From a virus: a stretch of 49,249 nt of DNA. Shown one piece after another: positions 22,083 through 36,577 of the stretch. The notes beneath the pieces are model-generated. The model did not search any database and was not told where the DNA came from. It saw nothing but the letters and a program-made list of their open reading frames with translations. Position numbers and translations under genes: made by a program. How positions within the stretch are numbered: the stretch's first letter is position 1; every line of letters begins with the position of its first letter. The stretch covers positions 1 through 49,249 of IMG/VR virus record IMGVR_UViG_3300017748_000013; one strand, given 5' to 3'.

Positions 22083-22100
22083 GTTCTAACATGTTAGAAC
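22083..22100. promoter_or_regulatory. Palindrome copy 1 (GTTCTAACATGTTAGAAC)
   Basis: A perfect 18-bp palindrome lies four bases upstream of the first ATG of the primase-helicase gene, where a ribosome binding site would be expected. A bound protein or RNA hairpin here could block expression of that gene. The same sequence occurs five more times in the early block. Confidence 0.75.
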
Positions 22101-31779: not shown

Positions 31780-33033
31780 TTACAGTTTGCTGCTGTCTAA
31801 GTGGACAGCGCTGCCTACACTTGGTTGTGTGCGCTTGTTATCCAAGATCAACCACAGTAAGGGACTGTTCCATCGCCCCCAGCTACCACCCAAGTATCCG
31901 TCCGTGAACACGATAACTGCTTGTGGGTTGATGCTGTTCTCTTGAATGTATCGAGTCACACAAGTGACATCCGTACCACCGCCGCCTTCTGGCTTGGTTG
32001 ACTTGCGTAAGTCTGCGATCTCATGCTGCTCGTAGACTTCTTCACGGCACACCTGCGTATCCCAGTAAAGCACTCGTATCTTCTTAGGCTTCACTGTCTC
32101 ACAGATGTGTGCGACCTCAGACAGAAACACGGTCAACTCTCTCTGCCCAATAGACCCTGACGTATCGCACGCAAGCACCAGTTCATCAACGGTTTCGGTG
32201 ATGCCGCTCGGCATGTACACACCTGCCCCGATGTACCTTCGGTTTGGACGTTTCCATGTGGAGTAGTCACTGCCTTTGCATGTGTCGTTAACGAACTCAC
32301 GCAATACATCTCGCCAGTTAACCTGCGGAGCCAGCAGTTCGTCTATTGACCTGTTACCACCTGACCCCATCTTGCCTGCGGCGAGCACACCCTGACGTAG
32401 TGCTTCGTCAATCTCGCGCTCGTTCTTGCGCTGTTCCTCTGCGGGTATCTCTTGTGCACCTTCCCAGTCGTGCTCGTCAAAGCCTTGTGGTAACTCGTTA
32501 CTAGGTTGACCATTTGTTGGGGGGTCGTCTGGGCTTGATACGTTCCCAGTACCTTTACCTTCTTCTTGCAGTGTTTTGAAGATAGCAGCCGAGTCCATCC
32601 ACCCGCTCTTGATCCTGTACTTCTCGTCGTACAATCCAATGATCTTGCCCTTATCATCGACGGGCATGGTGGCAAATTTGTCTGACTTGTTCTCATCCAC
32701 CAACTTGCCGTTGATGTTGTAGTCACAAGCAGCATTAGCCAGTGGCCCGTCCTTGTCATACATCCACCGCCATGTGGTCAGGTGTTTGTATATCTTGTGA
32801 TACAACTCATGCAGCAGAACAAAGCGTAGCTCTGCATCGGTCAACGATTGTGCAAACGCACGCCCGAACTTTATGTCGATGCCGTTTGTCTGAGCGGTTG
32901 GTATGTCTTCAACCACTTCGATCTTACCCAGCATCAGCGCACCAGCAGCCCACATGTATCGGTCATGCCGCATGATGTCCACAACACACTTCTGTAGGCG
33001 CTGTTCTTCCGTTAGTTTTGTTGCTAGTAACAC
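31780..33033 (-). CDS. VWA-like protein with N-terminal metallopeptidase-like domain (DUF2201 type)
   Basis: The 417-aa protein has two domains. The N-terminal one has HELYH (75-79) and AACDYNING (Asp104), the zinc-peptidase-like pattern of DUF2201 proteins. The C-terminal VWA-like domain has a complete metal-ion-dependent adhesion site: DTSGS (290-294), GGGTD (Thr354, Asp355) and FTDG (Asp378). A charged linker joins them. Together with the MoxR-type ATPase gene 267 bases upstream it forms the classic AAA+/VWA pair, in which the VWA protein directs the ATPase to metal-dependent remodelling targets. The start is GTG with GGAGGG upstream. Confidence 0.85.
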   Translation of the reverse strand: MLLATKLTEEQRLQKCVVDIMRHDRYMWAAGALMLGKIEVVEDIPTAQTNGIDIKFGRAFAQSLTDAELRFVLLHELYHKIYKHLTTWRWMYDKDGPLANAACDYNINGKLVDENKSDKFATMPVDDKGKIIGLYDEKYRIKSGWMDSAAIFKTLQEEGKGTGNVSSPDDPPTNGQPSNELPQGFDEHDWEGAQEIPAEEQRKNEREIDEALRQGVLAAGKMGSGGNRSIDELLAPQVNWRDVLREFVNDTCKGSDYSTWKRPNRRYIGAGVYMPSGITETVDELVLACDTSGSIGQRELTVFLSEVAHICETVKPKKIRVLYWDTQVCREEVYEQHEIADLRKSTKPEGGGGTDVTCVTRYIQENSINPQAVIVFTDGYLGGSWGRWNSPLLWLILDNKRTQPSVGSAVHLDSSKL

Positions 33034-33034
33034 G

Positions 33035-33295
33035 TTACTCGACCCTCCATATTTGTATTGCTGAGTTTTCTACGTTGCGCTTTACCGTTACTTTTTGATT
33101 AGCCCTTTTTGCTATGGCAGTTAGGGAGCTAGCGCGATTGCTTATCCCTCTGCCCCTCTTATTTTTTCTGTCCAAATCAAATACAACGGAGTCGCCTACT
33201 TCCCACATCTTCACAAGATCATATAAATCTTGATGTTTCTTACGGGCACCAACACCACGTTGAGGTATCGGTACGTTCTTTATTATTTCTATCAT
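33035..33295 (-). CDS. Small basic protein between AAA+ and VWA genes
   Basis: The start is set at ATG 33295, just after the ATPase stop, with AAGGTG upstream; longer forms would run back into the ATPase gene. The 86-aa product (IPQRGVGARKKHQDLYDLVK, WEVGDSVVFDLDRKNKRGRG) looks like a small basic nucleic-acid-binding or beta-barrel protein and ends QIWRVE. Its place inside the module suggests a dedicated adaptor, but no known family is recognised. Confidence 0.55.
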   Translation of the reverse strand: MIEIIKNVPIPQRGVGARKKHQDLYDLVKMWEVGDSVVFDLDRKNKRGRGISNRASSLTAIAKRANQKVTVKRNVENSAIQIWRVE

Positions 33296-33299
33296 CTGC

Positions 33300-34412
33300 T
33301 TACACCTTGTCCGCTGCGAACATGTATGAATTCTGCATGGCCCACTCGCCATACTTGGCATCTTGCACCACGGCCTCGCGTCGTTTGTGGTCGAACTTCT
33401 CAGCACGAATACCGTTGACGAACAGACCTTGTGCTTCCTTATCAAGACGCGATAGGTACGTCATCCATGCCGGAACCCAAGACCTTTCGATAGAGCCAAG
33501 CGTTCTGAACACCACCATGCACATAGCCGATGGAGTCTTGGGTATCATCGCCGTGTCTGGATTCTGTTTGATCGACTCCAACGTCGGCAGGTCGTTTGCC
33601 AGCTTGACGAATGCCATCATGTCCATCGCGGCCTGCTCACCGATGATGCCCATGAGCAAACCCGTTATGACATGGGGGGTTAGCTGTTCGCGTTTCTTGA
33701 TGATGTGACTCGCCTTCTCCAATGATCGGGGGGTCACAAATGCAGTCCGTTCCTTGGCACTGGGGTGGTAGATGTATGGGTTGTCGCGTGGGTCAGGCAC
33801 CTCATCGAATGTCTGAAACAACTGCGGGGTCTCTTTGACCCAACCCAGCAGGATAGGATCGACACCGTTGTTCAACCCCCACTCTATCCACTCCATGTTA
33901 GTGGGCTTGCGTACTCGCATCCGCACTATCCGATTGCACGCATGTGCTGGTAACAAGTCACCCACACCTTCGGCACCTAGGTTAGTCGTCGCAAAGACAA
34001 TTGAGTCGGGGTGCAGCTTGCGTCCTGCTAGCATCCGTTCTTGTATCAAACCCAGCAGTGCCAGCTTGACCGATGGGTTGGCTTTACCGAACTCGTCAAG
34101 ACACAACACAACTGGCTCATTGAGATGCAGCCCCAGTTCTTCGTTGGTTGCGAATGTCACGGATGACACCTCATCGTTGAGCTTGATGTTGGGGATCATC
34201 AGATCACCCAAGTCCTTGGTAGTGCAGTCGAACAAGATATGTCGGTGCTTCGGGAACTTCTGCATTAACATCTTTAGGATAGATGTCTTGCCTGTACCCA
34301 TGTGCCCCTCGGCTAAGTACACAATCCCACCGTCCTGTTCTCTACCAGTTTCGGCAATGGCTTCTGCGGATTCGTCCAGCGATACCGCGTACATGTTTAG
34401 AGCTTGGCTCAT
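33300..34412 (-). CDS. MoxR/CobS-type AAA+ ATPase
   Basis: The 370-aa protein has Walker A EGHMGTGKT (35-43), Walker B VLCLDE (102-107), sensor 1 FATTN (140-144) and the helix-2-insert region of MoxR-type AAA+ proteins, then a helical C-terminal part. Such ATPases form hexamers that work with VWA partners to mature or remodel protein complexes. The partner gene lies just downstream and a DUF3150 gene just upstream. AAGGAGA precedes ATG. What it remodels here (host polymerase, capsid, replisome) is unknown. Confidence 0.85.
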   Translation of the reverse strand: MSQALNMYAVSLDESAEAIAETGREQDGGIVYLAEGHMGTGKTSILKMLMQKFPKHRHILFDCTTKDLGDLMIPNIKLNDEVSSVTFATNEELGLHLNEPVVLCLDEFGKANPSVKLALLGLIQERMLAGRKLHPDSIVFATTNLGAEGVGDLLPAHACNRIVRMRVRKPTNMEWIEWGLNNGVDPILLGWVKETPQLFQTFDEVPDPRDNPYIYHPSAKERTAFVTPRSLEKASHIIKKREQLTPHVITGLLMGIIGEQAAMDMMAFVKLANDLPTLESIKQNPDTAMIPKTPSAMCMVVFRTLGSIERSWVPAWMTYLSRLDKEAQGLFVNGIRAEKFDHKRREAVVQDAKYGEWAMQNSYMFAADKV

Positions 34413-34433
34413 TATGGTCTCCTTAGTTTCTTG

Positions 34434-35384
34434 TTAGATTTCCAATGATGGAAGGTTATCAATGACGTTCTGTGTCATGGATTTGGTTTGCGCTCTCAGG
34501 TACGGACTGTCCCTGAGTGCTTCGGGTGTGACGCGCAGCAGTTCATTTTCTAGCCTGTCACACAACGCGCTGATCTGAGTGTTACCGATGACGTTACATG
34601 ACCTAACCAGTTTGGTTGCGTCGAGTACGTTACTGATAAGCGTGTTACGGAAGATGGCCTGTTCCCCGTCAGGCGTTTCACCTAGCCGATCAACCATCTT
34701 TCCTAGATAGTCTTTCAGTTCACCCAGCACCCTGTTCATGCCAGTGGCGTAGGTTTCTTGGATGAATTTGTCGTAGCCTTCTTTAGCGACCTGCAATGCC
34801 TGAGTACCTATGTCCACTCTGAAATCGTCACCTGAAGGTACGGGATGTGTCAGCACTTCCAGTGAGAACTTATCCTGTAGTACCGATCTGTCTGGGTACT
34901 CGTGAGCACGAAACATATCGCCAAGCACTGCTTGCTGCTCGGACACATAGAAGTCATACGAGTCTAGGAACTCATGGACTTTCTTATCGAACATCTGCTT
35001 TTTGGCAGTCACTTTGTTTATGTAGTCTGGGTACACTGCTTGAGGGCAGAGACGTGGGCCGCGATCTATCCACGGCATGGTAGTGCGATAGTGAATGTGG
35101 TTGCGGGTCTCACCGATGATTGACTTGATGCTTGCGAGTAACTTGTTACCAGCGAACAGATTCTTGGTGTATGTGCCCGCCTGAGACTCGGCATTGTTGT
35201 CGTGAGCGACCTGCTGCGAGATGTCCTCGTCAGTCACCTTACCGTCCCAACAAGACGTTTTTAATTCGACCAGCACCGCAGCACTGGAGATAGAGGGTAC
35301 GTTGATCTCAGAGAGACTCGGTAGCTCTGTCTGTTCTAACATGTTAGAACCTGTTGGTTCAGAGATGTCGTGTAGGTTTTCCAT
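34434..35384 (-). CDS. DUF3150-like partner of the AAA+/VWA module
   Basis: The 316-aa helical protein contains VLVELKTSCWDGKVTDEDIS, KNLFAGNKLLASIKSIIGET, then RNHIHYRTTMPWIDRGPRL, which resembles DUF3150, a family found beside CobS/MoxR ATPases and VWA proteins in conjugative elements and phages. The start shares its A with the previous stop (TAATG) and has AAAGGAAAA upstream. Codons 12-17 are made by a palindrome copy, so Gly-Ser-Asn-Met-Leu-Glu is dictated by the DNA site. The family assignment is from memory and should be treated as probable. Confidence 0.65.
   Translation of the reverse strand: MENLHDISEPTGSNMLEQTELPSLSEINVPSISSAAVLVELKTSCWDGKVTDEDISQQVAHDNNAESQAGTYTKNLFAGNKLLASIKSIIGETRNHIHYRTTMPWIDRGPRLCPQAVYPDYINKVTAKKQMFDKKVHEFLDSYDFYVSEQQAVLGDMFRAHEYPDRSVLQDKFSLEVLTHPVPSGDDFRVDIGTQALQVAKEGYDKFIQETYATGMNRVLGELKDYLGKMVDRLGETPDGEQAIFRNTLISNVLDATKLVRSCNVIGNTQISALCDRLENELLRVTPEALRDSPYLRAQTKSMTQNVIDNLPSLEI
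35333..35350. promoter_or_regulatory. Palindrome copy 3, inside the start of the DUF3150-like gene
   Basis: This perfect 18-bp palindrome is the only copy within an accepted coding region, beginning 35 bases after the A of the start codon. Exact retention inside a reading frame argues for selection on the DNA or RNA site and not just intergenic drift. Confidence 0.75.
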
Positions 35385-35767
35385 TAGTTAGTTTTCCTTT
35401 CTCTTAGTAAGTAAATGAAACCGCTCAATAGCAGTTCGTCTTTCTCTGGGTCACCCCAGTTCGTTATGGCCCGCAGTAAGTAATACTTCGGTAGCCAATT
35501 CAGTTTCACAGCCATACGCATGGCAGCTAAATCGTGGTACTCGTTTAGCTCCATGTCTCCACCGACTTCGACTAGCACTTCTTCGCCCTTCTCACCCATC
35601 GTATTGATGGCTTTGATCTTTGCCGGTTTGGTATCCGTTGCTGGCACATAGCTAGTTACGATGCGTTGCAGATGGTTCCGCTCCACATGTATGTCTAACG
35701 TGTCCAGTACATCCTTAACGTCTTCCAACTTGCTTCTCCTATCTCCCAATGTGTTCGATGTCGCCAT
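35384..35767 (-). CDS. Early protein, about 127 aa, function unknown
   Basis: The start is ambiguous. ATG 35767 overlaps the preceding gene by 29 bases. TTG 35728 lies after AGGAGAAGCAAG, an excellent ribosome binding site placed just after that gene's stop. The TTG form would have 114 residues. The protein has a short helix, a strand region (IVTSYVPATDTKPAKIKAIN) and a helical C-terminus (LAAMRMAVKLNWLPKYYLLR). No motif is recognised. It precedes the DUF3150-like gene with a TAATG overlap and so belongs to the same translational chain. Confidence 0.5.
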   Translation of the reverse strand: MATSNTLGDRRSKLEDVKDVLDTLDIHVERNHLQRIVTSYVPATDTKPAKIKAINTMGEKGEEVLVEVGGDMELNEYHDLAAMRMAVKLNWLPKYYLLRAITNWGDPEKDELLLSGFIYLLRERKTN

Positions 35768-36023
35768 CAGGTATGACCTGATACGCACCTTTGTTGTAGG
35801 GGATGGACACAGTGAACAGATTGTTCTTCTGTCCGTCCCGGTTCTTTCTGTCACTTGCATCGTAACCTGTTAGCGCGTAGTGGCTTACTGGCCCCGTGTG
35901 CGACGGGTACTTCGCACGAAAATCGGCAGAGCGTTGTTGCTCGGTGGGGGTACTGCAAACCATCGGTTTGAAAGGTCTTGCAGGCCGTCGAGGTTTACGC
36001 ACTGGTTTGTATCTTCTTGGCAT
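35739..36023 (-). CDS. First gene of the main early operon, basic 94-aa protein
   Basis: The product is very basic at its N-terminus (MPRRYKPVRKPRRPARPFKP) and then polar, with SHYALTGYDASDRKNRDGQK and a short C-terminal strand. It has the best early ribosome binding site (AGAGGAGA before ATG) and lies 88 bases downstream of the near-consensus early promoter, so it should be made first and strongly. A basic first early protein often targets host nucleic acids or polymerase, but its target here is unknown. Confidence 0.6.
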   Translation of the reverse strand: MPRRYKPVRKPRRPARPFKPMVCSTPTEQQRSADFRAKYPSHTGPVSHYALTGYDASDRKNRDGQKNNLFTVSIPYNKGAYQVIPDGDIEHIGR

Positions 36024-36038: not shown

Positions 36039-36056
36039 GTTCTAACATGTTAGAAC
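36039..36056. promoter_or_regulatory. Palindrome copy 4, in the leader of the main early operon
   Basis: A perfect 18-bp palindrome lies 15 bases upstream of the first ATG of the operon, adjoining its ribosome binding site and about 55-70 bases downstream of the predicted transcription start. A protein bound here would act as a roadblock. It shares 24 identical bases (palindrome plus TTGTTA) with copy 5. Confidence 0.75.
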
Positions 36057-36117: not shown

Positions 36118-36146
36118 ATTATCGCATATTCGTCGTCTTGTGTCAA
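36118..36146 (-). promoter_or_regulatory. Early sigma70-type promoter driving the leftward block
   Basis: Read on the minus strand: TTGACA (36146-36141), a 17-bp spacer, then GATAAT (36123-36118). The spacer ends TGC, so there is also an extended -10 TG. This is nearly consensus and should fire immediately with host RNA polymerase. Predicted start is near 36111, giving a leader of about 88 bases to the ATG at 36023. Confidence 0.85.
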
Positions 36147-36373
36147 GTATTATGATTAGGTGTTTTCTAATGGTTAGAGGTGTAATGTTCTATAATGTTC
36201 CAGAATGTTCCCTCGTATAGGTGGGCAAGTCCTTGATTTACCTAGAATGTTCCAATGTGCCTTTTTTAGGGAAATTGAATGGGTGGCGTAGAAGGGAGGA
36301 AGGAGGACGGAACATTAGGTAATTACGTGGTAACTTGTTTGGTGTGTGTTTTTACTAAGTCAAAATCTACCCC

Positions 36374-36415
36374 TATACATATATATTTCTAAAAAAGGAA
36401 CATTATACATATATA
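36374..36415. repeat. AT-rich direct repeats (possible DNA-unwinding element)
   Basis: TATACATATATA occurs at 36374-36385 and again at 36404-36415, exactly 30 bp apart, in a stretch of very high AT content inside the GGAACATT cluster. Such easily melted DNA next to repeated binding sites is expected at an origin; promoters are the alternative, since TATAAT-like hexamers are embedded. Confidence 0.6.
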
Positions 36416-36430
36416 GTCTTAAACGAATAT

Positions 36431-36460
36431 GCAGATACCGCCAGATAACGCCAGATACAA
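36431..36460. repeat. Three tandem 10-bp repeats (CCAGATAACG type)
   Basis: GCAGATACCG, CCAGATAACG and CCAGATACAA follow each other without gaps. The 10-bp period again matches a helical turn, and the core CAGATA is invariant. They lie between the AT-rich repeats and the right GGAACATT array and form a second type of binding-site array. Confidence 0.75.
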
Positions 36461-36577
36461 CCATACACCATCTGTCATTTGTTCCTTTTTGCCCAAAAAA
36501 AAGGGAACATTAGGGGAACATTATGGAACATTTGGAACATTACCCCCACGTAAAAAGGAACATTGCTCAACTGCCAT

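Follow-up and report, generated by a model that had tools for sequence, protein, structure and literature searches.

A conserved trio of DUF3150, MoxR-like ATPase and zincin-VWA genes shared by phages and plasmids, a candidate remodelling machine of mobile DNA

Our analyses of the IMG/VR virus record IMGVR_UViG_3300017748_000013 (49,249 bases; “the window” hereafter means this whole record) identify three neighbouring minus-strand genes, coding for a DUF3150-family protein, a MoxR-like AAA+ ATPase and a zincin-VWA protein, as a conserved trio. The trio is intact and conserved in this marine phage and recurs on bacterial plasmids, and so probably serves mobile DNA at large as a means of taking apart or cleaving a protein complex soon after entry. 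We propose, giving the idea slightly less than an even chance, that the trio may be a three-part remodelling machine made early from the replication operon, whose target would be a complex met during replicon establishment and copying. A sequence-only reading of the window had described an AAA+ ATPase and a VWA protein as parts of a dedicated machine, with the HELYH peptidase motif in place, a DUF3150-like gene upstream and a small basic gene in between; all four open reading frames lie on the minus strand at the coordinates given below, and this description holds for the conserved module of three genes and its motifs, the small basic gene being the part that fell away.

The 417-aa zincin-VWA protein (31780..33033, minus strand; PHROG 1314, homologue of N4 gp25) matches two Pfam families that span its sequence, DUF2201_N, a “putative metallopeptidase” (E 7.5e-25, 88.5 bits, cut-off 23.2), and the VWA-like DUF2201 (E 5.4e-17, 62.5 bits, cut-off 26.4). 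Alignment of 31 sequences, 28 to 72% identical, located the zinc-peptidase motif HELYH (residues 75-79; 32797..32811, minus strand) and the metal ion-dependent adhesion site (MIDAS) motif DTSGS (residues 290-294; 32152..32166, minus strand), completed by T354 and D378. The whole H75-E-L-Y-H79 motif, H84, N100, D104 and the MIDAS residues D290, S292, S294, T354 and D378 are invariant in it, and the HExxH, the histidine five residues on, the aspartate of an N..CD motif and the MIDAS remain so in N4, phage G and plasmid homologues (28-38% identity). PHROG 1314 and many phage records label this family as an HNH endonuclease, an identification that we consider to have practically no chance of being right: no HNH model was matched in the Pfam scan, the DUF2201_N and DUF2201 matches span the sequence, and the C-terminal half of the model adopts a VWA fold (Z about 13), with Foldseek matches that include the MIDAS domain of midasin. 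The HNH labels of the PHROG 1314/N4 gp25 family look wrong on these sequence and structure predictions.

Upstream, beyond the small basic gene, lies the gene for the 370-aa MoxR-like ATPase (33300..34412, minus strand; PHROG 1297, homologue of N4 gp24), and this adjacency of ATPase and VWA-protein genes, typical of MoxR-type pairs, is found in the window and in the viral and bacterial loci. The score of the ATPase against Pfam AAA_5 is 19.7 bits for a cut-off of 22, and its homologue in cyanophage MinM2 reaches 23.6 bits, above that cut-off. The aligned Walker A motif GHMGTGKT (residues 36-43, G36xxGxGK42; 34284..34307, minus strand), the Walker B motif ending in D106 E107 (34092..34112, minus strand) and N144 at the sensor 1 position are intact. 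Across 29 aligned sequences, including N4 and phage G, residues G39, G41, K42, D106, E107, N144, R161 and R229 are invariant, the last two of which we read as the putative arginine finger and sensor 2. The catalytic motifs that the sequence-only reading had reported in both proteins are thus not only intact but invariant in these sets of 29 and 31 sequences, among relatives whose identity falls to about 20-30%.

The third gene (34434..35384, minus strand) codes for a 316-aa protein that, in single-sequence searches, had no match in Pfam or PHROG. Its membership in DUF3150 is nevertheless indicated through relatives, profiles and predicted fold, and the upstream gene, previously called only DUF3150-like, can be taken as a real DUF3150 partner: PF11348 (DUF3150) was matched by 22 of 29 relatives (best E 9.7e-7), comparison of the window-family profile with canonical DUF3150 using hhalign yielded an E of 2.4e-5, improving to 2.4e-8 once plasmid members were included, and Foldseek matched the predicted fold to a phage “DUF3150 domain-containing protein” (E 5.6e-18). 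In the predicted structure the N-terminal part is mixed and the C-terminal one a helical bundle, in a domain arrangement that is uncertain because of its modest scores (mean predicted local distance difference test, pLDDT, 79.5; predicted template modelling score, pTM, 0.49). Fold searches of this model in the PDB returned generic helical bundles and no specific match, and an alignment mixing phage and plasmid DUF3150 proteins was nowhere conserved enough to supply a search block. Median pairwise identity is 0.69 for the ATPase, 0.55 for the VWA protein and 0.47 for DUF3150. We infer that the DUF3150 protein would be the adaptor or substrate selector of the module, since it is optional, repeatedly linked and the fastest-evolving of the three.

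Starting from the ATPase, we found 54 viral relatives, in which linkage was counted wherever the contig reached far enough; there may be plasmids or fragments among the IMG/VR contigs. DUF3150 lies upstream of the ATPase gene in 50/50 of these close relatives and the VWA gene downstream in 49/49, the only exceptions being contig ends, and the order DUF3150-AAA-VWA is kept in every one with sufficient contig. The neighbourhood comparison proposed with the sequence-only reading therefore finds the genes conserved together, with neither the scattering nor the degraded catalytic residues that would have spoken against a dedicated module. Ratios of nonsynonymous to synonymous substitution rates (dN/dS) of 0.15-0.25 for the DUF3150, ATPase and VWA genes (window versus locus L005) indicate purifying selection. 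A search with bacterial VWA proteins added 81 more diverse viral loci, among which 34 carry a DUF3150 trio, always with its three genes on one strand, in the orders AAA-D-VWA (26 loci, D standing for DUF3150), D-AAA-VWA (5) and AAA-VWA-D (3); in one further locus, L130, DUF3150 is present and the contig ends before the VWA gene. Wherever both are visible in these distant loci, the ATPase and VWA genes are close together on the same strand. A tree built from concatenated ATPase and VWA sequences requires a minimum of 3 switches between presence and absence of DUF3150 (6 in the best tree) and 5 rearrangements of gene order, counts that are approximate because the tree is a quick one with long branches; the linkage of DUF3150 is thus kept although its arrangement is not. 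Cyanophage MinM2, where the DUF3150 gene was found by tblastn, also carries the trio.

Beyond viruses, the trio occurs on plasmids of Rhodovastum, Cupriavidus, Paraburkholderia and Simplicispira, the ATPase gene of the last being 4 kb away. Of 54 scorable bacterial loci, 46 have DUF3150 next to the VWA gene, many of these on plasmids; in a few the ATPase end is truncated or escaped detection, the latter in two of the 46 (the incomplete locus L066 was left out of the 54). The Burkholderiaceae carriers of the trio that were sampled also have a PRTRC ThiF gene of full length, 8 and 12 kb from the trio on the two plasmids that have both on one record; none was found on the Rhodovastum and Simplicispira plasmids. 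Canonical PF11348 proteins, found in 5 of 274 searched genomes (loci L125-L129), sit in all five loci beside a CobT-like VWA protein with a conserved HExxH...ED.R.E signature, four of the five also having a recognisable CbbQ-like ATPase. These canonical loci form a parallel trio, so that DUF3150 is combined with an AAA+ ring and an HExxH-bearing VWA protein in two related designs. The conserved signature suggests that the CobT-like proteins of these loci may also be zincins rather than cobaltochelatase subunits. Direct homology between DUF2201_N and CobT N-terminal regions was considered and rejected: with the window-family profile the match around HExxH was weak and unreliable (E 0.015, probability 3%), and with plasmid members added only the VWA halves aligned.

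This parallel trio, with its CbbQ-like AAA+ and CobT-like VWA components, brings to mind a metal-insertion or cofactor chaperone comparable to CobNST cobaltochelatase, NorQD or CbbQO. We regard such a role as very improbable for the window module: no CobN was found in the 49-kb record, which may be incomplete, the window VWA protein has no CobT match in Pfam, and no plausible metallo-client was recognised among the scanned genes.

Chromosomal ATPase/zincin-VWA pairs were also observed, in a conserved cassette (L103:127-7218, L108:16-7212 and L100) made up of a protein some 1000 aa long whose C-terminal part is a retron-like reverse transcriptase (RT), an N6/N4 DNA methylase, a 323-aa protein, an AAA ATPase and a zincin-VWA protein. 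The last three proteins of the L103 cassette match no PADLOC model, and it is possible that the cassette represents an unreported RT-based defence system. As a stand-in for DUF3150, the 323-aa protein was rejected (hhalign E 0.71).

The genomic setting of the trio argues for its early use. In the window, which has no near relatives among isolated phages by nucleotide search, the terminase and portal genes are on the plus strand, and a replication operon runs on the minus strand from about 36.0 kb down to 19.2 kb, coding for DNA polymerase A, a VRR-type nuclease, a PD-(D/E)XK exonuclease, a SNF2-type helicase, a single-stranded DNA-binding protein and a primase/helicase. At its head, all on the minus strand, come a 94-aa gene (35739..36023; supported by the open reading frame list and by the neighbourhood and promoter comparisons), a 158-aa gene just upstream of the module (35384..35860; open reading frame list and neighbourhood comparison) and then the DUF3150, ATPase, small basic and VWA genes. 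A scan placed an extended -10 promoter, TTGACA-17-GATAAT, ahead of the operon (36118..36146, minus strand). Since sigma-70 promoter-like sites in the scan were fewer than in shuffled sequences, a match by itself means little and the promoter rests on its conservation: L006 and L009 keep the same -35 and -10, with different spacers, ahead of the 94-aa gene. This conserved promoter, the location of polA and the single-stranded DNA-binding protein, helicase, primase and nuclease genes on the same strand, and that of terminase and portal on the opposite one favour early expression.

Between the promoter and the first gene lies the palindrome TTCTAACATGTTAGAA (36040..36055, no strand), which has six perfect copies in the window (at 22084, 31760, 35334, 36040, 36579 and 37341) for a chance expectation of 0.3 even with 3 mismatches allowed. 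Five of them are grouped around the module and the operon head, and L006 has a symmetric variant, GTCTAACATGTTAGAC, at the corresponding place upstream of its first gene. Together, TTCTAACATGTTAGAA and GTCTAACATGTTAGAC have the form that one would expect if a dimeric regulator used them as its operator. Further upstream of the operon promoter, the words AATGTTCC and GGAACATT are repeated in an AT-rich stretch (36184-36530).

This position bears on a different role, that of a chaperone or protease for capsid or tail in virion assembly or maturation, as proposed for the jumbo-phage MoxR-vWA pair and as reported for the archaeal virus ATV during the development of its tails. It has been put forward in print for the same domain architecture (PMC7824862), and the N4-like phage RPP1 encodes some virion proteins near its gp24/25 homologues (PMC4193335). 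However, the window module sits in an opposite-strand early operon, apart from the terminase, portal and structural genes, and the trio is also carried by plasmids and chromosomes, from which no virions arise, all of which makes virion assembly unlikely as the general role.

The 86-aa basic gene (33035..33295, minus strand) turned out to be a lineage-specific insert: it is found between the ATPase and VWA genes only in three near-identical genomes (L002-L004), and L006 has a homologue beside polA (L006:8252-8527). Its dN/dS of 0.63 over few changes (window versus L005) indicates relaxed or poor constraint. It is a mobile small gene, not a member of the module.

How the three proteins might work together can be proposed from their families and motifs. 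MoxR/CbbQ ATPases and their VWA partners remodel protein complexes, as is established for RavA-ViaA, CbbQO and others (see also PMC7159879). The AAA+ protein would form an ATP-driven ring, to which, and/or to the substrate, the VWA protein would bind by way of its MIDAS metal site. The DUF3150 protein, which shows the lowest conservation within the trio, would be an adaptor or would select the substrate. With its additional zincin motif, the VWA protein may also cut, its N-terminal domain clipping what the ring pulls out. The target would be a protein complex that the incoming replicon encounters during its establishment and copying. We favour, by a slight preference, a host complex (a defence or a block to replication or transcription) over the replication complex of the element itself, because of the breadth of the module across unrelated mobile elements and the chromosomal relatives of the pair in RT/methylase cassettes, which are suggestive only.

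Alternatively, the module might remodel the replication or partition complex of its own element, in the way that ClpX acts on initiators, as a housekeeping function rather than an attack on the host. We see this as a serious though doubtful possibility. The trio is always in the replication operon beside the VRR-type nuclease and polA in this phage lineage, the plasmid copies have ParB and toprim genes, or else a PRTRC cassette, in their vicinity, and the genes belong to a conserved core set, as N4 gp24/25 do in their group. On the other hand, no shared self-target is visible because the replication genes of the carriers (polA phages, MinM2, conjugative plasmids) are mutually unrelated, and chromosomes, too, have AAA/VWA pairs with no replication genes around them, in some cases next to retron-like RT genes.

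Several observations weigh against a dedicated three-part machine with peptidase activity aimed at the host. DUF3150 is missing beside the ATPase/VWA pair in N4, phage G and about half of the scored loci, a share that is an upper bound since distant DUF3150 proteins may be missed, and many viruses thus appear to treat DUF3150 as optional. Mirror-tree correlations among the three genes (r 0.85-0.92) are no stronger than those with the neighbouring nuclease gene (0.82-0.86); this signal is not specific to the trio and we rejected it as proof of interaction. PDB fold searches with the VWA protein matched its VWA half only, leaving the N-terminal domain with no solved zincin match, so that zinc-peptidase activity is what motif conservation suggests. 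Finally, the constant synteny in this phage lineage could also mean a housekeeping role in replication.

Taking both sides, the remodelling machine of incoming replicons is the reading that we retain, tentatively. In its boldest form, this reading would make the trio an unrecognised, widespread three-component system, carried by mobile elements as different as phages and conjugative plasmids, that disassembles and cleaves a host complex so that the incoming DNA can establish, with related AAA/zincin-VWA pairs on the bacterial side in the retron-like RT cassettes; this is an attractive but rather speculative extension. In any case, a recurring partner set can now be assigned to DUF3150, a core gene pair of N4 phages is linked to plasmid biology, the virion-assembly role is argued not to be the general one, and the plasmid trio offers a small cultivable test system for finding the target.

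The components, and the ATPase/zincin-VWA pair, were already known; DUF3150 as a third member was not found described. No paper naming DUF3150 or describing the trio was found in the open literature (most subscription journals being outside this scope), and no mechanism was found there for DUF3150 or N4 gp24/25. NCBIfam held no useful family for the module proteins. RavA-ViaA is a MoxR-type ATPase working with a VWA partner, and is not known to include a zincin domain or DUF3150. In N4-like phages (Schitoviridae), gp24/25 are core genes listed as unknown and vWFA domain, expressed as middle, not earliest, transcripts (PMC4193335). N4 gp24 and gp25 resemble the window in their homologous ATPase and zincin-VWA proteins in the same order, at 19% and 28% identity respectively, whereas no DUF3150 gene is detectable near them. 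Group 2.2 jumbo phages encode a MoxR and metallopeptidase-vWA pair proposed to act in virion assembly (Iyer et al. 2021, PMC7824862), which shares with the window the two-protein architecture and the N-terminal metallopeptidase fused to vWA, but that paper does not mention DUF3150. The MoxR-vWA ternary conflict systems, of VMAP, FtsH, beta-propeller and iSTAND types (PMC7159879, PMC12839542), resemble the trio in combining a MoxR ATPase, a vWA protein (sometimes peptidase-fused) and a third component thought to sense. Here, by contrast, that component is DUF3150: none of the three module proteins matches a PADLOC defence-system model, and the third gene has no Pfam match to VMAP, FtsH, beta-propeller or iSTAND (VMAP and iSTAND profiles were not directly compared). 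The proteobacterial trio of CbbQ-like AAA, DUF3150 and CobT-like VWA matches the window module in composition: it has a homologous DUF3150 and keeps the HExxH in its VWA partner, although this partner is of CobT rather than DUF2201 type and its ATPase of CbbQ/NorQ type.

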